From: an uncultured bacterium
Lineage (GTDB): Bacteria > Cyanobacteriota > Vampirovibrionia > Gastranaerophilales > Gastranaerophilaceae
Assembly (NCBI GenBank): GCA_949300485.1
Contig: CASGEL010000001.1
Coordinates: 186,001 to 250,000, forward strand
Length of the DNA: 64,000 nt
Direction of reading: 5' to 3'
Part shown: positions 22,542-32,097 of the stretch, piece after piece
How the letters are laid out: each line of letters opens with the position of its first letter
Numbering within the stretch: the stretch's first letter is position 1
Position numbers and translations under genes: made by a program
The notes under the pieces: generated by a model
Database searches by the model: none
What the model was told of the DNA's origin: nothing
What the model saw: only the letters and a program-made list of their open reading frames with translations

Positions 22542-22925
22542 CTACTTTTTAAAGAACCCTTCATATTTATCAATCAAATAATCCTCTGAAACTTTTGTTA
22601 ACTTATCACTTAAATCTGATTCTTTTGTTCCATGTGAACTTACATAGAAGAACTGTCCATCATTATTAATTCTTTTAAATTTATCAACAATTTTTCTAAA
22701 TAGATTTACAGGTGAAATATCACTAACAATTAAAGCCGGATGAACCAATTTAGGATCTTTTGAGCTCCTCATCAAAATATAACTAACATCAGCGTTATAT
22801 CTCTTCCCGAATTTTTCTACTGCCTTTGAATCCAAAAGTGCATTATAAACGACTTCAGGCATATTTTTATCCCCATAAATTCTTACTGCACCAAATGTTG
22901 GGGATTGGACTTTTTCAATGTTCAT
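22542..22925 (-). CDS. Hypothetical FGA-motif protein, 127 residues
   Basis: A small soluble protein starting MNIEKVQSPTFGAVRI, with F-G-A at 11-13. This is the same position as in the 190-residue protein at 6823-7395, although the rest differs. The body alternates short helices and strands (DVSYILMRSSKD, HPALIVSDISPVN, FFYVSSHGTKESD). No family is recognised. A ribosome site of AGAAAGGTAATG type precedes the start. It lies 27 bases downstream of tRNA-Ala(GGC) on the same strand and ends at its own terminator, so it may be read from the tRNA promoter. Confidence 0.65.
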   Translation of the reverse strand: MNIEKVQSPTFGAVRIYGDKNMPEVVYNALLDSKAVEKFGKRYNADVSYILMRSSKDPKLVHPALIVSDISPVNLFRKIVDKFKRINNDGQFFYVSSHGTKESDLSDKLTKVSEDYLIDKYEGFFKK

Positions 22926-22952
22926 TTCATTACCTTTCTAACATTAAAATTA

Positions 22953-23025
22953 TGGAGCGTAGGGGACTTGAACCCCTGACCCCCACACTGCCAGTGTGAT
23001 GCGCTACCAACTGCGCTAACGCCCC
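22953..23025 (-). tRNA. tRNA-Ala (anticodon GGC)
   Basis: A complete 73-base cloverleaf. The 7-base-pair acceptor GGGGCGT pairs with ACGCTCC (one G-T). The D arm is GCGC-GCGC. The anticodon arm TCACA/TGTGG has loop CTGGCAG giving GGC, and the T arm has loop TTCAAGT. The discriminator is A and CCA is not encoded. Reads GCC/GCU alanine codons. Confidence 0.95.
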
Positions 23026-23060: not shown

Positions 23061-23813
23061 TTATGATAACTTCTTTATATAAAACATTACATGCTTTATC
23101 CAATCCTCAGCGACAGACTTATCGCAATATTTTCCGGAACGTCCAAGCTCCTCTAAAGTATTAAGATGACTTTCTTTATGATGTTTTGCAACAGTTTCAG
23201 CCATTGCATCAATACAATCTTCTACTCTAGAAAACTTCCTTAAGCCATTACGCCCCATAATACCACCGATGTTATTTTTAGTACGTGCAGCAACTGAAGT
23301 ACCTCTTGAAGATTCTGCCATAGAAATTGCCATCAAAACAATCGGATTAACATTATATTTTTCGGCTTTATTTAAAAATACAGCGGCTTTATTTTTTATT
23401 GGATTAGTTTTATTACCTTTTTTTAATAAAAGATCATTTAATAAAACATTCAATTCTTTTGCTGATTTATAAGGATCATCCACTAATAATACATCTTTTG
23501 CAGATTTTATAACGGGAACTTTAGCAACTGATTTTTTAACAGACGGGCTTTTTAACGTAAAACAATCAGTAACTATACCGGGCTTTGTACGTACAAAAAC
23601 ATCTCCATTATTTTCAACTAAATTTGCTGATTTATTTGCAAACTGAGGATTCAAGCCACCAGAAACAAACATTACAGCTGTTACAGCTCTTCTACCTTTA
23701 TCTCCGACCTGTTCAACACATTTTTTAGTACCTTTTAAAATTTGTTTTCCTGATTTTACAGTAAAATTAAATGCACTATTTATATTTGCATTACTTATAT
23801 GGGGTATTTTCAT
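23061..23813 (-). CDS. Lysozyme-like / glucosaminidase-type peptidoglycan hydrolase
   Basis: A 250-residue protein. The last 100 residues resemble a glucosaminidase or lysozyme-like domain: NPIVLMAISMAESSRGTSVAARTKNNIGGIMG. Here the E of AESSRG would be the catalytic acid and NNIGGI corresponds to the nN-hfG-i motif. It ends in YCDKSVAEDWIKHVMFYIKKL. The N-terminal half is basic and lacks a clear cleavable signal peptide, although AVTAVMFVSGGL is a short hydrophobic patch. The early AFNFTVKSG faintly resembles the F-x-G style N-termini of neighbours. It likely cleaves cell-wall glycan, though export is unclear. It lies upstream of the tRNA on the same strand. Confidence 0.7.
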   Translation of the reverse strand: MKIPHISNANINSAFNFTVKSGKQILKGTKKCVEQVGDKGRRAVTAVMFVSGGLNPQFANKSANLVENNGDVFVRTKPGIVTDCFTLKSPSVKKSVAKVPVIKSAKDVLLVDDPYKSAKELNVLLNDLLLKKGNKTNPIKNKAAVFLNKAEKYNVNPIVLMAISMAESSRGTSVAARTKNNIGGIMGRNGLRKFSRVEDCIDAMAETVAKHHKESHLNTLEELGRSGKYCDKSVAEDWIKHVMFYIKKLS

Positions 23814-23997: not shown

Positions 23998-24855
23998 ATG
24001 AAAAGTCACTTGGATATATTAGAAAAAGAATCAATAGAATTAATAAGAGAAGTTTTATCAACCAATGATTTAAATGAAATATGCTGTTTTTACTCTATTG
24101 GTAAAGATAGTAGTGTTCTTTTAAAACTATTTGAAAAAGCCTGTTGGCCAAATGAAATTCCCATAAAATTCTTACATATAGATACAGGTTATAAGTTTAA
24201 AGAGATGTATGAATTTAAAGAAAAGATAAAAAACCGAATTAATTTGATTACATATATCAATCCAGAAAAATTAAATCCCTTTGAACATGATTCATCATAC
24301 TACACTAATATTATGAAAACTCAGGCTTTGATACAAGCATTGAGATTATATAACATTAAAATATCTTTTGGAGGAGCTAGAAGAGAAGAAGAAAAAAGTA
24401 GAGCAAAAGAACGTATGGTTTCTATACGCTATAACGAATGTTGGAATCCAAGGATGCAAAATAGTGAAATAAACTACCTATGGAACACATTTCATACAGA
24501 AGACACAACATTAAGAATTTTTCCTCTAAGCAATTGGACCGAGCTGGATATTTGGGAATATATCAATAGAGAAAAAATTGAAGTTGTCCCAATATATTTT
24601 GCTCATAAAAGGAAAGTTATATTAAAAAATGGACAATTTTTTGCAACTCAAACTGATGAAGGAGAAATAAAACAAGTAAGATTTAGAACTCTTGGATGTT
24701 ATCCACTTTCAGCTGCGATAGAAAGTAATGCACAAACACCAGAAGATATTATAGAGGAACTTAAAAATACAAAATATTCAGAAAGAGTCGGTCGTATGAT
24801 AGATTATGATCAAGATTGTTCAATGGAAAAAAAGAAAAAAGAAGGTTATTTTTAA
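23998..24855 (+). CDS. cysD: Sulfate adenylyltransferase subunit 2 (CysD)
   Basis: Small catalytic subunit of ATP sulfurylase, which with CysN makes APS from ATP and sulfate in the cytoplasm. The 285-residue length is normal. The PP-loop SIGKDS is at 33-38. Typical CysD features follow: HIDTGYKFKEMYEF, SFGGARREEEKSRAKER, FPLSNWTELDIWEYI and the C-terminal RVGRMIDYDQDCSMEKKKKEGYF. It is first in the cassette cysD-DUF2061-cysNC, with a one-base stop/start overlap to the next gene. The promoter is directly at the ATG. The DNA from here to about 27.2 kb looks even more AT-rich than neighbouring regions by eye. Confidence 0.95.
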   Translation: MKSHLDILEKESIELIREVLSTNDLNEICCFYSIGKDSSVLLKLFEKACWPNEIPIKFLHIDTGYKFKEMYEFKEKIKNRINLITYINPEKLNPFEHDSSYYTNIMKTQALIQALRLYNIKISFGGARREEEKSRAKERMVSIRYNECWNPRMQNSEINYLWNTFHTEDTTLRIFPLSNWTELDIWEYINREKIEVVPIYFAHKRKVILKNGQFFATQTDEGEIKQVRFRTLGCYPLSAAIESNAQTPEDIIEELKNTKYSERVGRMIDYDQDCSMEKKKKEGYF

Positions 24856-25091
24856 TGAATATAAATAAATTATTAAAAAAACACTATAATTTCATGTTAT
24901 TAATTAAAGCCATAGGTTACAGATTATGGGGAACTCTGGCAACTATTATTATATCTTTTATATTTACAGGAAATGTAAAAATTTCAGTATCAATAGGTAT
25001 TTGCGAAATAATTTCCAAAATTATATTATACTATATTTACGAGAAAATATGGGAAAAACTTTTTAGGAATAAAAATGAAGAGAATTTGTAA
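24855..25091 (+). CDS. DUF2061-like small membrane protein in sulfation cassette
   Basis: A 78-residue membrane protein with two hydrophobic segments, GYRLWGTLATIIISFIFTG and SVSIGICEIISKIILYYIYE. It ends in the basic aromatic EKIWEKLFRNK. The pattern fits DUF2061, a family of small membrane proteins that I recall seeing beside cysDN genes in gut bacteria. The start is the ATG at 24855, which overlaps the cysD stop codon by one base. Its 3' end overlaps cysNC by 17 bases. Translational coupling and position suggest it works with sulfate activation, though no function is known. Confidence 0.75.
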   Translation: MNINKLLKKHYNFMLLIKAIGYRLWGTLATIIISFIFTGNVKISVSIGICEIISKIILYYIYEKIWEKLFRNKNEENL

Positions 25092-26637
25092 TATTGTAAC
25101 ATGCGGAGATGTCGACAGCGGTAAATCAACTTTATTTGGACGTTTATTATACAATACGAATAATGTATATGAAGATGCGAAACGAGATGTAGAAAAAGCA
25201 TCAAAGAAATACAGTAAAAATAACAGGCTAGAATATGGACTGTTATTAGATGGTTTACAAGATGAGCGGCAACAACAAATTACTATTGATATTGCTCACA
25301 GATACTTTAATATAAAAAACACTCGCTTCCACTTATTAGACTGCCCTGGCCATAGTCAATACACACATAACTTTGTTATTGCTGCCGCTGAAGCTGACAT
25401 TGCAGTATTAATTATTGATTCAACTAAAGGTATCATGCCACAAACGCTTATTCACCTAGAACTTTGTAAATTATTACAAGTGAAAAACCTTATTATTGCA
25501 ATAACTAAAATTGATTTAAGTCGGGATTCTAAGGTTAATGACATAGAATCAAAAATATTACATACTATCACAGATTTTGCTAATTACAGAATAATTAAAA
25601 CAAGTGCAATTAAAAATATCAATATAGACATTTTAGCAAATATATTATATAAAATGTCCATATCCATACGTAAAGATGAATCTTTTACTCTATGTGTACA
25701 AACAGTTAAAAAACTTAAAAATGATAGAATCTATCAGGGAATTTCAACCGGAAAAATTAAAAATGGACAAAATATTAAAGTTTATCCATCAAATATTGAC
25801 TCAAAAATATACAAAATAAAAAAGACCGTTGATTGTTATAAACTTGATACGAATATAGATATAGGAAGAAGTTATATAATTACAGAAAAAGAATTACAAG
25901 TTTCTAATGAGATAAAAGGTGAATATATTTCTTTTAATAAGAAAATCAAGTCTTCGAATCTAATATTTAAACATGGAACATCAATTTCCAGAATTATATC
26001 TTTAACCAAAAATAAAATCATTTTATCAGAAAATATATCATTTGCTAATATAGAAGAAATAAAACGTTTAGGTTATGGAATAATTATTGATAATTCCAGC
26101 AAATTAAATGTTGGAATGTTTATAATCTCTCAAAATAAAAAAGAATTTCCAAATTATTGCTATTGGTTTACTGGATATTCAGGAAGTGGGAAAACAACAT
26201 TGGCCCACCAATTAGCCAAACACTTTGCAATCAAACCTGTTATTTTAGACGGTGACGAAATTCGCAAAACAGTAAATTACGATTTAACCCTGAATAAAGA
26301 AGACAGAGATAAAAATGTAACTAAAATTGCCAATCTTGCAAATCTATTATTATCACAAGGGCATAATGTTATCGTTGCGTGTATTAGTAAAGATATTAAT
26401 CAAAGACTTTATGCAAGAAATTTAATGGGTAATTCATACTGTGAAATATATATAGAATCAAGTGAGTCAACAAGAATTAAAAGGGATACTAAAAAACTTT
26501 ATAAGAATCAGATTAAAGTATTAGATAATTATGAACCAAGTCCTTGGGAAAATATCGTTATTAATACAGATACAAATTCTGTCGACCAATCAACCATTGA
26601 ATTACTGGAAAAATTACAAGCTAAACATTATTTATAA
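25075..26637 (+). CDS. cysNC: CysN-CysC fusion: ATP sulfurylase GTPase subunit and APS kinase
   Basis: A bifunctional cytoplasmic enzyme of 520 residues. Residues 1 to about 350 are CysN, an EF-Tu-like GTPase: G1 GDVDSGKST at 11-19, DCPGH at about 89-93 and a G4-like ITKIDL where NKxD is usual. Beta-barrel domains follow. Residues about 360-520 are APS kinase: P-loop TGYSGSGKTT near 366-375, then DGDEIRKTVN and NKEDRDKNVTKIANLA. The fused enzyme makes APS and then PAPS, the sulfate donor for sulfotransferases. The fused kinase points to sulfation rather than only assimilation. The CysN part is somewhat shorter than in enterobacteria. It converges on a broken sulfotransferase gene. Confidence 0.93.
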   Translation: MKRICNIVTCGDVDSGKSTLFGRLLYNTNNVYEDAKRDVEKASKKYSKNNRLEYGLLLDGLQDERQQQITIDIAHRYFNIKNTRFHLLDCPGHSQYTHNFVIAAAEADIAVLIIDSTKGIMPQTLIHLELCKLLQVKNLIIAITKIDLSRDSKVNDIESKILHTITDFANYRIIKTSAIKNINIDILANILYKMSISIRKDESFTLCVQTVKKLKNDRIYQGISTGKIKNGQNIKVYPSNIDSKIYKIKKTVDCYKLDTNIDIGRSYIITEKELQVSNEIKGEYISFNKKIKSSNLIFKHGTSISRIISLTKNKIILSENISFANIEEIKRLGYGIIIDNSSKLNVGMFIISQNKKEFPNYCYWFTGYSGSGKTTLAHQLAKHFAIKPVILDGDEIRKTVNYDLTLNKEDRDKNVTKIANLANLLLSQGHNVIVACISKDINQRLYARNLMGNSYCEIYIESSESTRIKRDTKKLYKNQIKVLDNYEPSPWENIVINTDTNSVDQSTIELLEKLQAKHYL

Positions 26638-27223
26638 AACTTATTACCAAATTTTTTAGGAATTTGTAAATCTTCTTTATATAGATTTTTGATTTCTAAA
26701 ATTTGACTTGGAGTAAGAAGCTCTTTTGTAATAATTCTGTCTTTAGAGACATAAAAATGATTTGGTCTTATATTAAACTTTTCTTCCATAAATATATCCA
26801 ATTTCTTTATATCAACAAAGTCTGTAATATACTCTAAAATATTCCTATGATATGTATAAATTGGTACAACATGTTAATCCCATTTATACATATTCATTGA
26901 ATTTAATTTAGCAAGCAATATTGATTTATCAATAAATTCATTTAAATCAGTATCATAAGAAGGCTTTAAAGAAGATAAAATAAAATTTTGTCTTGTATAT
27001 TTATTATTCAACATCCTCACAAACCTATCTACAGGATTATCATAAACCATAAAAATAATACTATAATCATTATTTTTATCAGATAAAAAATCATCCACAG
27101 ATAAATTCATCTGAGATTTTGTATGATGATGTTTACTATCACATTTTTCTCCGGAAATACTATTTTATCTTCTAAAGTATCTGCAATTGTAATGTTATGA
27201 GAGTACAGAACAATAGACTTCAT
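26628..27223 (-). pseudogene. Decayed sulfotransferase gene (Sulfotransfer_2-like)
   Basis: Reading the minus strand from 27164 gives a continuous frame containing SKHHHTKSQMNLS, IFMVYDNPVDRFVRMLNNKY and MYKWD. An in-frame TAA follows at 26876-26874, and the same frame then continues HVVPIYTYHRNILEYITDF to DRIITKELLTPSQILEIKN and LYKEDLQ, ending at 26628. These match the pattern of PAPS-dependent sulfotransferases: K-H-H, the R-N-P-x-D-R-like D-N-P-V-D-R-F-V, D-x-H, late L-L-T and L-Y-K-E-D. The TAA would be a CAA (Gln) mutated once. The N-terminus is worse: a short piece in another frame starts at 27223 (MKSIVLYSHN) and the PAPS-binding P-K-T-G-G-T is absent. The 3' end overlaps cysNC by 10 bases. 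Confidence 0.7.
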
Positions 27224-27246: not shown

Positions 27247-28473
27247 TTACAAAAAACATTTCAAAATCAAAGATGTATTGATACCACCAAATGCAAAATT
27301 ATTTGACATAACTATGTTCGTATCAATTTCTCGACCTGCATTTTGAATATAATCTAGTTTACCACAAGCTTCATCTACATCATTCAAATTCAAGGTCGGA
27401 CAAAACCATTTTTTTCTAGCCATATCAATAGTCAAAATAGCTTCTATTGCACCACAGGCACCAAGAGTATGACCTGTATAACTTTTGATAGAACTTGTCG
27501 GAATGCTGCGTTTAAAAATATCATAAGTTGCATTACTTTCTGCGATATCTCCCTGCACAGTTGCTGTACCATGAGCATTGACATAACCTATATCTTCAGG
27601 AGATATATTGGCATCTTTTAATGCTAACTCTAATGCCGTTTTCATTTTATCCCGATTGGGAGTAGTAATATGCGTACCATCAGTACTTGTACCAAAGCCG
27701 ATAACTTCAGCATAAATTTTTGCCCCGCGCTTTTTGGCATGCTCATACTCTTCCAATATAACAGTTCCTGCACCTTCTCCAATTACAAGCCCATCCCTGT
27801 TTTTATCAAAAGGAGAAGGAGTCAGCTCAGGAGTATCATTTTTCTGACTCGTTGCATACAATGTATCAAATATTGCAATCTGAGTCGGATGCATTTCGTC
27901 TGCACCACCTGCAATCATTATTGTTTCATAACCATTTTTGATAGCTTCATATCCGTACCCTATTCCCATTGCTCCGGATGTACAAGCAGTAGAGGTAGGA
28001 ATTAATCTTCCTGTAGTTTTAAAATACAATGAAATATTAACAGCCGAAGTCTGAGGCATCATTTTTACATAACTGCCTGAAGTAAGAGTACGAACTTCCT
28101 TTTTCTCCATCATTGAATAAAAATCAATAATACTTTCCAAAGAACCTGAAGATGATCCATAACTTACACCTGTTTGACCGTTTGTGATAATTTCATCACC
28201 CAGTAGACCGGCATCTTGTAAAGCTTCTTCCGCACTGACAACACTCATAACCGCAACACGACCCATTGTCCTAAGAACCTTGCGAGTGTAATGTTCAGGC
28301 GCAATGAAATTGTCAACCGGTGCGGCAAGTTTTGTATTCAAACGTGTAAACACCTCTAATTCAGGCATATATTTTACACAATTTTTCAAGCTTAACAAAC
28401 GTTCAAAAGCATCCTCTCTTGTTCTGCCAAGAGGACTAATCTGCGACATTCCGGTAATAACAACACGTTTCAT
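27247..28473 (-). CDS. Beta-ketoacyl-ACP synthase, ApeR-like (aryl polyene cluster)
   Basis: A 408-residue condensing enzyme of the FabF/KAS II type, cytoplasmic. The catalytic triad is Cys164 in S-T-A-C-T-S-G, His in NAHGTATVQGD and His in YTGHTLGACGA. It would extend a polyene acyl-ACP with malonyl-ACP. I start at the ATG at 28473, since GGAGG lies 9 bases before it. The ORF's extra residue comes from a preceding TTG. The start overlaps the ketoreductase stop by one base. Last of four leftward genes whose order (KS, dehydratase, ketoreductase, KS) matches apeO-P-Q-R of Escherichia coli. Confidence 0.92.
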   Translation of the reverse strand: MKRVVITGMSQISPLGRTREDAFERLLSLKNCVKYMPELEVFTRLNTKLAAPVDNFIAPEHYTRKVLRTMGRVAVMSVVSAEEALQDAGLLGDEIITNGQTGVSYGSSSGSLESIIDFYSMMEKKEVRTLTSGSYVKMMPQTSAVNISLYFKTTGRLIPTSTACTSGAMGIGYGYEAIKNGYETIMIAGGADEMHPTQIAIFDTLYATSQKNDTPELTPSPFDKNRDGLVIGEGAGTVILEEYEHAKKRGAKIYAEVIGFGTSTDGTHITTPNRDKMKTALELALKDANISPEDIGYVNAHGTATVQGDIAESNATYDIFKRSIPTSSIKSYTGHTLGACGAIEAILTIDMARKKWFCPTLNLNDVDEACGKLDYIQNAGREIDTNIVMSNNFAFGGINTSLILKCFL

Positions 28474-29198
28474 CAATATAATCCTCCATTTACAGAAATA
28501 ACCTGACCTGTTATATACCCAGCATCTTCACTCATAAGATAATTAACAAGACTGGCAACTTCTTTAGCCGTACCAAATCGTTTCATCGGAATATGCTTTT
28601 TAATCTCATCTACCGGCAAATCTTGTGTCATATCAGACTCAATAGCCCCTGGGGCAACACAATTTACAGTAATTTTTCTTTTAGCTAACTCAAGTGCTAA
28701 AGCTTTTGATGCACCTATTATTCCGGCTTTTGAGGCACTATAATTCACCTGTCCATAATTCCCTCTAAGCCCTGAAACTGATGACATTGCAACAATTCTG
28801 CCTTTAACCCTTGCGGCTATCATTGGCATTACAATCGGTTTTAAAACATTATAAAATCCGCCAAGATTTGTATTCAAAACACTATCCCACGCTTCGTCAT
28901 CCATAGACGGGAAAACGGAATCTCTTGTAATTCCGGCATTTAGCACAACTCCGTAATAAACACCATTCTTCTCAATATCTTCTGATATAACCTTTTTACA
29001 CTGTTCCCTATCTGTTGTATCAAACTGCAAAATTCGACCATTAACTCCTAAAGATTTTATTTCTTGAAGAACAGCTTCTGCTTTTTGCATATTCTTATTA
29101 CAATGCAAAATAATATCAAATTCATTTTTAGCAAGATATAAAGCGGTTTCTTTTCCTATACCGCGGCTTGAACCGGTTACCAACACTTCTTTTCCCAT
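28473..29198 (-). CDS. 3-oxoacyl-ACP reductase, FabG/ApeQ-like
   Basis: A 241-residue short-chain dehydrogenase that reduces beta-ketoacyl-ACP with NADPH. The TGSSRGIG cofactor loop is at 8-15, NAG at 87-89, catalytic Ser near 140 and Y153-x-x-x-K157 in YSASKAG. It ends with the family's YITGQVISVNGGLY. It is cytoplasmic and of normal length. It sits between the dehydratase (4-base gap) and the ApeR-like synthase (1-base overlap), so it belongs to the polyene cluster rather than housekeeping fatty acid synthesis. Confidence 0.92.
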   Translation of the reverse strand: MGKEVLVTGSSRGIGKETALYLAKNEFDIILHCNKNMQKAEAVLQEIKSLGVNGRILQFDTTDREQCKKVISEDIEKNGVYYGVVLNAGITRDSVFPSMDDEAWDSVLNTNLGGFYNVLKPIVMPMIAARVKGRIVAMSSVSGLRGNYGQVNYSASKAGIIGASKALALELAKRKITVNCVAPGAIESDMTQDLPVDEIKKHIPMKRFGTAKEVASLVNYLMSEDAGYITGQVISVNGGLY

Positions 29199-29202
29199 AT
29201 AT

Positions 29203-29652
29203 TTAACCCCCGATGTTCAGGTATTCCGTAGCATTCTTCGGCTGATAAGCATTTATAGTTGCTTTAGCACACTCAGCACCCTCATTATAAATTAAACATT
29301 CAAATGAAACAAGCTCATCATCACAAAAGATTTCTTTTGCTTTGATTATGTACTTATGATCTTTTTCAAATTTTTCCAAAGAACATCTGTAAGATCGAGT
29401 ACCTAATAAAAAACCTATTTGCGGAGTTTCATTATTATTTTTAAAATGAGTATATGCGGCAATAGTTTGAGCCATAAATTCAATTCCAAGAAGATACGAA
29501 ACTCCATCCAATTCTCTTTCGAAAAATACATTATCCTCTCTTATAGTAACACTTGTTAAAATATATTCTTCATCTAAATTAACTTCTTCAATATTATCAA
29601 TAAGTATCATCGGATTATTATGCGGTAATATTTTTTCCAAATCGTATTTCAT
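29203..29652 (-). CDS. Hotdog-fold 3-hydroxyacyl-ACP dehydratase, ApeP-like
   Basis: A 149-residue FabZ/FabA-like dehydratase. The catalytic His is H11 in ILPHNNPMILIDN and the partner Glu is probably E58 in LLGIEFMAQTIAAY. It removes water from 3-hydroxyacyl-ACP to give the conjugated double bonds of a polyene. Compact length and position between two ketosynthase/reductase genes match ApeP of aryl polyene clusters. A second dehydratase domain is fused to the ligase on the rightward arm. Confidence 0.88.
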   Translation of the reverse strand: MKYDLEKILPHNNPMILIDNIEEVNLDEEYILTSVTIREDNVFFERELDGVSYLLGIEFMAQTIAAYTHFKNNNETPQIGFLLGTRSYRCSLEKFEKDHKYIIKAKEIFCDDELVSFECLIYNEGAECAKATINAYQPKNATEYLNIGG

Positions 29653-29653
29653 A

Positions 29654-30730
29654 TTATTTCCCTAAAATTATAACTGCGTTCGTTCCGCCAAAACCAAAGG
29701 CATTACACATAACATTCTTAATGTTTTTAATTTTTGAACCCTTTACTGCAAGATTTATCTGTGGAATATCCGGATTATATTCTCCATCATAAATATGTGG
29801 AGGAAGATCATTCACTCCGGATCTTAAGAGTTCAAAACAAATAGCAGTTTCTATACTTGCAGATGCCCCAAGACAATGCCCCGTTAACGGTTTAGTTGCA
29901 CTTACCAAAGTTGAATTGCCAAATACTTTATATACAGCATTTGCCTCCATTGTATCATTTGCAACAGTGCCGGTCCCATGAAGATTTATATAATCGATAT
30001 CTCCAGGTTGCAAGCCGGCCGAGTTAAGCGCTGCAATCATAGCATTGGCAGCTTCTTCTCCATCCGGATTTGGAGTTGAAGCATGGTATGCATCCGAAGT
30101 TTCTCCAATGCCAAGAATTTTTATTCCTTTATCTGCTTTTTCGAGAATAAACAGAGCTGCAGCCTCAGAAATATTTATGCCCGTAGGATTTTTACTAAAA
30201 GGATTTGACCTTTTATCAGATAATACCTCCAGGGCACTAAATCCTGCTAATGGAAATTTTGAAATTTCATCTGCTCCACCAACTATAACTGCATCACAAA
30301 TACCTGCATCCATCCATTTCTGTGCAGTTAAAAAAGCTTTTATTCCTGATGAACATGCTGTAGACACACCACAGAAAGGTCCGGATAATTCTAAATATTC
30401 TTTTACAAATTCTGCAGGATTACTCATCTTTAAAAATTCAGGATTTTGGGTATTTTCATAGTTATCAATACCTGTATTAGTGGTAGAAATAACAACTCCA
30501 ATTCTTTTTTTGTCGTAACGCAAAATCAAATTATTTATATCATATCTAATTTTATCTATGCAATGGAGAAGCATTCTGTTACAACGGATATTGTAAATTT
30601 CAGATTCAATTTCAGGAAGGGTTGTTGAAATCTTGAAATCTACAAGCTTTCCATCTATTACATTTTTGAAAACTTCTTCTAAATTTTCACCTAAATTACA
30701 TATTGCAGCAGCTTTTGTGATACTAATCAT
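29654..30730 (-). CDS. Beta-ketoacyl-ACP synthase, ApeO-like (aryl polyene cluster)
   Basis: A 358-residue condensing enzyme, somewhat shorter than FabF. Active-site Cys126 lies in S-T-A-C-S-S-G, with His in NLHGTGTVAND and His in PLTGHCLGASASIE, so the triad is intact. In characterised aryl polyene systems ApeO pairs with the chain-length factor ApeC, and here the ApeC-like gene is directly across the divergent promoter. An AGAGGAA box precedes the ATG. The next gene starts one base after this one stops, consistent with an operon apeO-P-Q-R. Confidence 0.92.
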   Translation of the reverse strand: MISITKAAAICNLGENLEEVFKNVIDGKLVDFKISTTLPEIESEIYNIRCNRMLLHCIDKIRYDINNLILRYDKKRIGVVISTTNTGIDNYENTQNPEFLKMSNPAEFVKEYLELSGPFCGVSTACSSGIKAFLTAQKWMDAGICDAVIVGGADEISKFPLAGFSALEVLSDKRSNPFSKNPTGINISEAAALFILEKADKGIKILGIGETSDAYHASTPNPDGEEAANAMIAALNSAGLQPGDIDYINLHGTGTVANDTMEANAVYKVFGNSTLVSATKPLTGHCLGASASIETAICFELLRSGVNDLPPHIYDGEYNPDIPQINLAVKGSKIKNIKNVMCNAFGFGGTNAVIILGK

Positions 30731-30741
30731 TATTCCTCTTC

Positions 30742-30770
30742 TTGCAGAATTATTATATCAATATTATACT
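30742..30770 (+). promoter_or_regulatory. Putative rightward promoter of the polyene cluster
   Basis: TTGCAG (30742-30747) and TATACT (30765-30770) are separated by 17 bases inside the 48-base divergent gap. The ATG of the chain-length-factor gene lies 8 bases after the -10 box without a Shine-Dalgarno sequence, so the message may be leaderless. The -35 match is weak. Confidence 0.4.
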
Positions 30771-30778
30771 ATAATATC

Positions 30779-31369
30779 ATGAAGGAAATTATTTTTGATA
30801 TAAAAAAATATTCATATATAAAAGATGAAGAATGCGATGTGTCTTTTATTCCGATGCTAACAAGAAGAAAACTGAACAAATTTGGACGCTGTGCCTTATA
30901 TACACTGTATAAAGTTTATGAGAAAGGAAATCCCCGATTAGTATTTGCTTCAGAATACGGAGACATTGAAAGGGTCAATAAATTAATTATACAAAGAAAT
31001 GAAGACGGAGAAGTTTCACCTACCGGATTTAGTTCATCGGTTCATAATGCTTCTATTGGCCTATTTTCACTACTTGAAAATAATAAAACAGGTTATAACT
31101 CAATTTCAGCTGGCAAAAAAACAATTGCAACAGGATTTTTGGAAAGCATATTATCAACAAATGCAATCTTTTGTTATACAGAAAGCTTGGGTGGATTAAA
31201 AAGTGTTTCTGCGGAAATTCAAACATCAAAAAATGGTAAATACATCCTAACCGAAAAAACTCAAGATGAAATAACAAAAGACTCTTTTAAAGATTTTACA
31301 GAATTCCTTGACGGGAAATGCGATTTATTTGTAAGTGATATATATAAAGTTCAAAGGATTGTGAAATGA
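30779..31369 (+). CDS. Ketosynthase chain-length factor, ApeC-like
   Basis: A 196-residue protein of the beta-ketoacyl synthase-like N-terminal family (PF13723 type). It keeps ketosynthase-like sequence but has lost the active-site Cys: the region reads SSSVHNASIGLFS. It also has the conserved FIPMLTRRKLNKFGRCALYTL and VFASEYGD. Such proteins form a heterodimer with the catalytic ketosynthase and set polyene length. First gene of the rightward arm. It overlaps the acyltransferase gene by 4 bases (ATGA). Confidence 0.87.
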   Translation: MKEIIFDIKKYSYIKDEECDVSFIPMLTRRKLNKFGRCALYTLYKVYEKGNPRLVFASEYGDIERVNKLIIQRNEDGEVSPTGFSSSVHNASIGLFSLLENNKTGYNSISAGKKTIATGFLESILSTNAIFCYTESLGGLKSVSAEIQTSKNGKYILTEKTQDEITKDSFKDFTEFLDGKCDLFVSDIYKVQRIVK

Positions 31370-32097
31370 AATTCTATAGATCATTTCTTGTACTTATTGA
31401 AATATGTATTTTTGGAACAGGGGCATTAATAATTGGATGTTTGATATTTCCAACTCTATCACTATTTGTAAAAGAACAAAACCGACGAGAATATTTTTCC
31501 AATATTATACATAGTTCTTGGAAATTTTTTATAGACATAATGCAAAAAACAGGGGTAATAAATGTAAATATTGAAGGAGATTTATCAAATATAAAAGGCA
31601 AAATAGTTGCTGCATCACATCCAAGCTTAATAGATATTATTCTATTAATAGGACAAATGCCTAAATCTCTTTGTCTGGCAAAAAAAGAACTGTTAAAAAA
31701 CCCTGTTATGCACAATATCGTTAAATCACTTTATATAATAAATAATATTGATCCCGAAATATTCAAAAAAAATGCAACGGAAGCTCTTAAAGACGGTTAT
31801 AACATTGTAATATTCCCAACAGGTACAAGAACACTTCCTGACGAACACATTAAAATTCATAAAGGTGCCGCCCAACTTGCTATAGCCTCAGGAACAAGCA
31901 TTATTCCAATCAATATTAAAACAGATTATCCGTTTCTTATAAAACACCATTCACCGTTAGATGCCGGATCCAAAACAGTAAATTACTACTTAAAAGTCAT
32001 GCCTGAAATAAATCCGCAAAACTATATGGATACAACTGATAGCGAAATTAAAGCACGAAACCATATATCAGAAAAAATTAAAGAATATATAAATTGA
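31366..32097 (+). CDS. PlsC-type acyltransferase, ApeD-like
   Basis: A 243-residue lysophospholipid-type acyltransferase with one N-terminal membrane helix (LVLIEICIFGTGALIIGCLIF). Block I is H85-P-S-L-I-D90 (the HxxxxD motif), and block III is FPTGTRT where FPEGTR is usual. It ends in a typical C-terminal extension. Position two of the rightward arm matches ApeD, thought to attach the polyene to a lipid carrier. An AAAGGA box and a 4-base overlap with the upstream gene show coupling. Confidence 0.88.
   Translation: MKFYRSFLVLIEICIFGTGALIIGCLIFPTLSLFVKEQNRREYFSNIIHSSWKFFIDIMQKTGVINVNIEGDLSNIKGKIVAASHPSLIDIILLIGQMPKSLCLAKKELLKNPVMHNIVKSLYIINNIDPEIFKKNATEALKDGYNIVIFPTGTRTLPDEHIKIHKGAAQLAIASGTSIIPINIKTDYPFLIKHHSPLDAGSKTVNYYLKVMPEINPQNYMDTTDSEIKARNHISEKIKEYIN

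Follow-up and report, generated by a model that had tools for sequence, protein, structure and literature searches.

Why does a bacterium keep three intact genes for making the sulfate donor 3'-phosphoadenosine 5'-phosphosulfate (PAPS) next to a sulfotransferase gene that is dead? The question is raised by a stretch of 64,000 nucleotides, here called the window, from an uncultured member of the Gastranaerophilaceae (assembly GCA_949300485.1, contig CASGEL010000001.1, positions 186,001 to 250,000). In it, cysD, a gene for a DUF2061 protein and a cysN-cysC fusion (cysNC) run toward the remnant of a sulfotransferase. This cassette is probably a dedicated PAPS-sulfotransferase module, horizontally acquired, which serves sulfation rather than cysteine synthesis and feeds an intact sulfotransferase encoded on another contig, C13, with a surface glycan as the likely acceptor. 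In what follows, G-numbers denote genomes and L-numbers extracted loci of the comparison set; G000 is the genome of the window itself (2.05 Mb, 27 contigs, 98.92% complete), and the window corresponds to G000:C1:186001-250000.

Structure of the sulfate-activation cassette

The cassette and its convergent neighbor comprise the following features:

23998-24855, + strand: cysD, 285 aa, small (catalytic) subunit of sulfate adenylyltransferase, intact
24855-25091, + strand: DUF2061 gene, 78 aa, PF09834 (Pfam, E 1.6e-16)
25075-26637, + strand: cysN-cysC fusion, 520 aa, single frame, intact
26628-27134, - strand: sulfotransferase pseudogene, C-terminal ~170 model positions only, convergent to cysNC

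The identities of the first three genes had been given in an earlier note on this DNA, and Pfam, NCBIfam and motif alignment bear them out. CysD matches PF01507 (Pfam, E 7e-43) and the NCBIfam model NF003587 for CysD (E 1.8e-99), and is 59-64% identical to the CysD proteins of four genomes of the same family. The fusion carries, in one frame, the Pfam domains GTP_EFTU (PF00009, E 2.3e-43) and APS_kinase (PF01583, E 4.9e-27; APS, adenosine 5'-phosphosulfate), and an alignment with four relatives shows that its P-loops, its GTPase and APS-kinase motifs and other conserved motifs are kept. At 520 aa it is somewhat shorter than the same-family relatives (531-535 aa, four genomes); fusions from other families of the order have open frames of 575-649 aa, so that the window protein is compact. 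By domain searches and alignments, the cassette encodes a complete ATP sulfurylase (CysD and CysN) and an APS kinase (CysC), and none of its three genes shows decay, each having an open frame and preserved catalytic motifs. The DUF2061 gene, whose product is presumed to be a two-helix membrane protein, starts at the ATG of a TAATG that it shares with the end of cysD (24855), and its own 3' end has 17 bp in common with the start of cysNC. Judged from these overlaps, the three genes appear to be arranged like a single operon.

The sulfotransferase remnant

The 3' end of the remnant overlaps that of cysNC by 10 bp. The remnant has no match of its own in Pfam or NCBIfam, and pieces of it find nothing relevant among the PDB sequences; because no library recognizes it, it is identified as a sulfotransferase only through its relatives. 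The closest comparison is with the intact enzyme of G169, a genome from another genus of the same family, to which it is 40% identical over 141 residues (tblastn E 2e-36) across an in-frame TAA; a whole-genome search with the same enzyme recovers it at E 1.6e-30. A profile of the five intact members of this sulfotransferase family matches it at E 1.2e-44 over positions 141-312 of 316, which correspond to window positions 26628-27134. The TAA (26874-26876) lies inside the D-x-H motif, which reads D-Q-H in all five intact members, and the N-terminal ~140 model positions, including the 5'-phosphosulfate loop, are missing. Since only 112 bp separate the end of the homology (27134) from the fabF stop (27247), the N-terminal half cannot be present there; the N-terminal halves of the five intact members find nothing significant upstream of the remnant in a search space of 400 bp (best E 0.01, on the wrong strand).

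The gene is dead, by deletion and by a nonsense stop. The earlier note had called this neighbor a sulfotransferase remnant and its acceptor enzyme decayed; the decay is confirmed and the assignment stands by way of the relatives, although the start that the note placed at 27223 lacks support, as no N-terminal homology is found there. It had also asked whether related genomes carry an intact enzyme at this spot, and G169 does: the 3' end of its cysNC overlaps by 17 bp that of a convergent, intact sulfotransferase gene of 319 aa (L045 11352-12311, - strand).

An intact paralogue on another contig

A search of the genome with the G169 enzyme finds two loci, the remnant and one intact gene:

G000:C13:6250-7170: intact sulfotransferase paralogue, 306 aa

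This gene answers the question, likewise posed in the earlier note, of whether other sulfotransferases exist in the genome. Over 307 residues its product shows 37% identity with the G169 enzyme, and the frame has no inner stop. The 5'-phosphosulfate loop and the D-x-H motif, which we take to be functional residues, are kept in all five intact members of the family, the C13 enzyme included. A profile of the family aligns with three clear PF03567 (Sulfotransfer_2) enzymes of the same order with an hhalign probability of 92.9 (E 3.8e-7), loop and D-x-H motif being aligned. Scores against PF03567 itself are 18.2 bits for the G169 member (23.3 with neighbors), 23.3 for that of G362, and 16.8 (22.4 with neighbors) and 13.0 for the two of G145, and a profile of the five intact enzymes has no match among the PDB sequences. 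The family is an unusual subfamily, barely seen by standard profiles.

A second look at the C13 model with VIA-align returns 50 rows, all of them sulfotransferases and led by heparan sulfate 6-O, 2-O and 3-O enzymes; the best row has Z 6.6, rmsd (root-mean-square deviation) 5.0 and 181 aligned residues, a Z below 8 being one that may mean merely a common arrangement. Heparan sulfate enzymes also lead the Foldseek list for the G169 model (best E 0.14, none at E 0.001). The N-terminal ~75 residues of the family are modeled as beta strands in the AlphaFold models of both the C13 and G169 enzymes, at a pLDDT (predicted local distance difference test) of ~60. The C13 enzyme is predicted to use PAPS and may work like a Sulfotransfer_2 enzyme rather than being a canonical PF03567 member.

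The reductive branch and other sulfotransferase classes

The earlier note had named cysH with sulfite reductase as the sign of a plain assimilation pathway. The PAPS-reductase-type domain PF01507 has one match in the genome, which is cysD itself (control positive in 14 of 14 genomes). The sulfite reductase domain PF01077 has no match in ten genomes (own, five of the same genus, four of the same family), with the control positive in 11 of 14. Assimilation is disfavored because PF01507 matches CysD alone and PF01077 nothing. Across the five same-family genomes that carry the cassette, sulfite reductase is not found, PAPS reductase having been checked in G000 only.

Three further sulfotransferase domains have no match above the cut-off in G000. 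PF13469 is absent from seven genomes, G000 included (control positive in 4 of 14), and PF00685 gives a single sub-threshold match in G000 (E 0.046). The arylsulfate sulfotransferase (ASST) domain PF05935 is sub-threshold in G000 (E 0.056) and G036 (E 0.052) and above the cut-off only in G235.

Loci of relatives and glycan gene context

The C13 sulfotransferase gene is convergent to a block encoding a HAD (haloacid dehalogenase) phosphatase, a cytidylyltransferase (PF02348), a GT2 glycosyltransferase (PF00535) and NeuB (PF03102, E 3e-68), and a surface glycan is a likely acceptor for this reason. Glycan genes recur beside other members of the module: the G169 cassette adjoins a ManC/ManA-type gene, and in G145 a polysaccharide pyruvyl transferase gene (PF04230) is the neighbor of one sulfotransferase of the family, while GT2 and PMT_2 genes lie near a second. 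A DUF1796 gene lies two genes away from the G362 member. From these neighbors, a surface glycan is the likely best guess for the acceptor. Also near the intact C13 gene is a 332-aa open reading frame (ORF; L068 4741-5739) whose C-terminal part looks ADP-ribosyltransferase-like by eye.

The arrangement in G235 is different: two ASST genes precede cysD, and cysNC is followed directly, on the same strand, by a gene for a PF03567 sulfotransferase. The ASST-like genes (L047 5866-8742) are in tandem directly upstream of cysD and are 59% identical to each other. An excerpt of PMC10932419 describes ASST enzymes as a PAPS-independent class, which makes them unexpected members of a PAPS operon.

Distribution and origin of the cassette

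Among 383 genomes searched of the order, CysD (E 1e-20) occurs in 12 (G000, four of the same family and seven of other families) and the sulfotransferase family in four, all within those 12. The naive hypergeometric p for this co-occurrence is 6e-7, or 0.016 at the genus level, values that are biased in that the sulfotransferase family was first found in cassette genomes, kinship makes the genomes non-independent, and a cassette without the family exists in G235. The module of one CysD clade is present in five of the 383 genomes (G000 and the four of the same family), four of which carry the sulfotransferase family. Full-length CysNC is found in none of 45 other genomes of the same genus and 13 of the same family; partial matches in the same genus are what would be expected of elongation-factor GTPases. 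Two further loci of the order, L048 and L049 (G076 and G080, from other families), hold a different PAPS operon, cysC-cysD-cysNC, without DUF2061; the genes after cysNC there are, as we name them by eye, a permease and an inositol-monophosphatase-like gene.

The content of this site differs between species. In G036 the same flanks (a glucosaminidase-like protein at 71% and FabF at 88% aa identity) enclose instead a 140-aa repeat ORF and a uracil-DNA-glycosylase-like gene. Five other fabF-block loci of the genus (L089, L090, L091, L093 and L094) lack the cassette, with at least three other kinds of content after fabF. Because different genes follow fabF across species, the edge of this fatty-acid-type cluster is a variable site. 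The cluster itself (27247-32097), a FabF/FabG/dehydratase-like/ketosynthase/acyltransferase block that presumably resembles an aryl polyene cluster, is conserved in sister genomes. Upstream of cysD, a stretch of ~60-100 bp at 22941-23025, flanked by the ORFs 22542-22925 and 23061-23813, has copies of 75-98% identity in many same-genus contigs, and one at G000:C3:6575-6636, as a dispersed repeat or shared element.

Absent from sister species, the cassette looks acquired. A scan of genome contigs provided the best 80 of at least 593 CysD relatives, and the CysD tree has 81 rows, 73 of these 80 loci plus eight others (L102 was left out as a duplicate, and six loci for want of a suitable ORF). In this tree a clade with 100/99 support unites the five same-family copies with one copy, 65% identical, from a metagenome-assembled genome (MAG):

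SUUT01000012.1 (L101): CysD copy of an alphaproteobacterial MAG, SIG53

The genes have likely been exchanged across phyla. The donor is left unnamed because the join of G000 with the MAG has support of 82/94 and the G000 end branch is the longest in the tree (2.2), with odd composition. There is no sign of a phage origin, since none of the 49 pattern matches that the sulfotransferase profile has among viral contigs is a relative; no CysNC in phage records covers 80% of the query, and the 271 in plasmid records that do are all below 60% identity. The MAG locus has peculiarities of its own. Its CysN-CysC relative (L101 8852-10219; 455 aa) aligns to most of the window fusion, has lost the APS-kinase P-loop, and its kinase is no longer matched by Pfam. 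The convergent neighbor there is an ASST-like gene (L101 10211-11698; PF14269, E 3.6e-18) and not a PAPS sulfotransferase. From its sequence, the MAG system may make APS only.

The DUF2061 protein

Four of the five same-family cassettes have DUF2061 between cysD and cysNC, and the TAATG overlap is the same in G145, G362 and G235; in G169 it is absent from the 20 kb of the locus seen. In two Mesorhizobium nod clusters (M. loti CP050295 and M. huakuii NZ_CP050299) the annotated order is nodB-nodC-nodI-ABC permease-sulfotransferase-DUF2061-cysD-cysN; standing between sulfotransferase and cysD, DUF2061 is part of the rhizobial nod module too. A seven-seed hidden Markov model for DUF2061 finds three loci (L102, L114 and L130) among the best 80 CysD loci. 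The first has the same length and the same CysD as the G362 contig; the others, from gammaproteobacterial MAGs, have the order cysD-cysNC-DUF2061, with no sulfotransferase recognized by eye. On Microvirga plasmids the C-terminus of CysN is fused to DUF2061 (L098 3615-5204 and L099 3636-5252), and the gene beside such a fusion in Microvirga sp. VF16 is one that we take, by eye, to be cysH-like. One Halobellus and one Bradyrhizobium plasmid record have DUF2061 without a cys neighbor.

DUF2061 was considered as a mark of sulfation in particular, an idea rejected on account of L114 and L130 and of the Microvirga VF16 fusion. It accompanies CysN at large, and does so in a minority of cases. A physical partnership of DUF2061 with CysN at the membrane is probably the simplest reading, and in the window the protein would be a small membrane partner that holds PAPS synthesis there. 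DUF2061 is absent from the titles and abstracts of the literature searched, and the passage of one paper that names it in its text concerns PA3237 and not sulfation. A domain of unknown function thereby joins the parts that travel with CysD and CysN, as a neighbor here and in Mesorhizobium, and as a fusion in Microvirga.

A proposed module and its alternatives

From the families of their domains, CysD and the CysN domain would convert sulfate and ATP to APS, which the CysC domain would phosphorylate to PAPS. Probably one or more sulfotransferases, from a single small family, came in together with the module, after which the copy beside the cassette would have lost its N-terminal half and died. 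PAPS would then probably be consumed by the intact C13 paralogue, whose acceptor is likely a surface glycan, perhaps with a nonulosonic acid. The C13 paralogue is the most likely recipient because no reductive branch is found, one intact paralogue exists, and the family occurs only in cassette genomes.

A number of points weigh against this account. Against PF03567, whose cut-off is 22 bits, the C13 enzyme scores 16.1 in a search with a laxer limit, and the domain is missing from its hmmscan result at E 0.001. Its AlphaFold model is poor (mean pLDDT 60.5), Foldseek with that model has no match at E 0.001, and the VIA-align Z falls below the value noted above. The 3'-phosphate motif of the family reads Y-D/E-D-P-x-K-R-F-x-R/S, compared with V-R-N-P-x-x-x-x-x-S in canonical enzymes: Asp or Glu replaces the Arg in all five intact members, and Arg stands in place of the Ser in four of them, both residues being canonical in all three comparison enzymes. 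If these residues bind the 3'-phosphate, as we assume, the exchange of the Arg could mean altered donor use. The pairing of the C13 enzyme with the cassette is indirect, as the two would have to be linked across contigs. Among relatives, G235 lacks this sulfotransferase family and has another sulfotransferase and two ASST genes, and no sulfotransferase adjoins the cassette in the DNA seen of G145, where the contig ends, or of G362. It is decidedly doubtful, but conceivable, that the five intact enzymes form a separate subfamily, marked by swapped charges at the 3'-phosphate site and by an extra beta domain at the N-terminus, which would bind the donor differently, possibly using APS, or only PAPS channeled from a membrane-held CysD-DUF2061-CysNC complex, and pass the sulfate to a nonulosonic-acid surface glycan.

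The earlier note had left two outcomes for the cassette, loss or service to another sulfotransferase, and the latter fits better. Loss would mean that the cassette's own sulfotransferase died first and that the partnerless rest will follow. The adjacent pseudogene, a cassette GC content of 0.28, at the low end among the window's 58 ORFs with 100 aa or more, and the long G000 branch of the CysD tree, which could reflect relaxed constraint, all suit such a course; it is nonetheless unlikely, given three open frames with their catalytic motifs and an intact paralogue of the lost enzyme in the same genome. Plain assimilatory activation, with APS or PAPS reduced for cysteine by an unrecognized enzyme, draws on the fact that CysD and CysN are common to assimilation and on the fusion beside the cysH-like gene in Microvirga. 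The domain searches for the reductive branch, the near-complete genome and the intact sulfotransferases that adjoin the cassette in two relatives (G169 and G235) make it highly improbable. It is barely credible that faulty assembly or sequencing has made an intact gene look like a remnant: errors can produce a stop and a frame break near each other, but with 112 bp for ~140 model positions the DNA itself lacks most of the N-terminal half.

Comparison with known systems

Among the papers listed on Gastranaerophilales or Melainabacteria with sulfotransferase, PAPS or sulfate, titles and abstract openings contain nothing on the topic. In other bacteria PAPS-dependent sulfation is documented: gut Bacteroides sulfate steroids in this way (PMC9417993), and rhizobia their surface polysaccharides (PMC6192434). 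With the C13 enzyme, the cassette makes a compact, testable pair for sulfated surface glycans.

The rhizobial nodPQ genes with a NodH-type sulfotransferase likewise dedicate CysD and CysN(C) to a sulfotransferase for an exported glycan, and nodPQ of M. loti is required for sulfated surface polysaccharide according to a passage of PMC6192434 that cites Townsend 2006. The window system differs in gene order, in its distant sulfotransferase subfamily and in that the adjacent sulfotransferase is dead. In Bacteroides thetaiotaomicron, a gut bacterium as the source of the window probably is, BT_0411-BT_0416 place PAPS genes beside a PAPS-dependent cholesterol sulfotransferase (PMC9417993, in part). 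BT_0416 is a steroid enzyme, whereas the C13 enzyme has heparan sulfate sulfotransferases as structural neighbors and glycan genes at its flank. With the heparan/chondroitin-type enzymes of Sulfotransfer_2 the family shares fold neighbors, the 5'-phosphosulfate loop and the D-x-H motif, and it departs from them in scores near or under the cut-off, an N-terminal beta-strand region and a changed 3'-phosphate motif. The window system is probably a PAPS-sulfotransferase module dedicated to sulfation, comparable to nodPQH or BT_0413-0416, ordinary in kind and unusual in its sulfotransferase family and in DUF2061.

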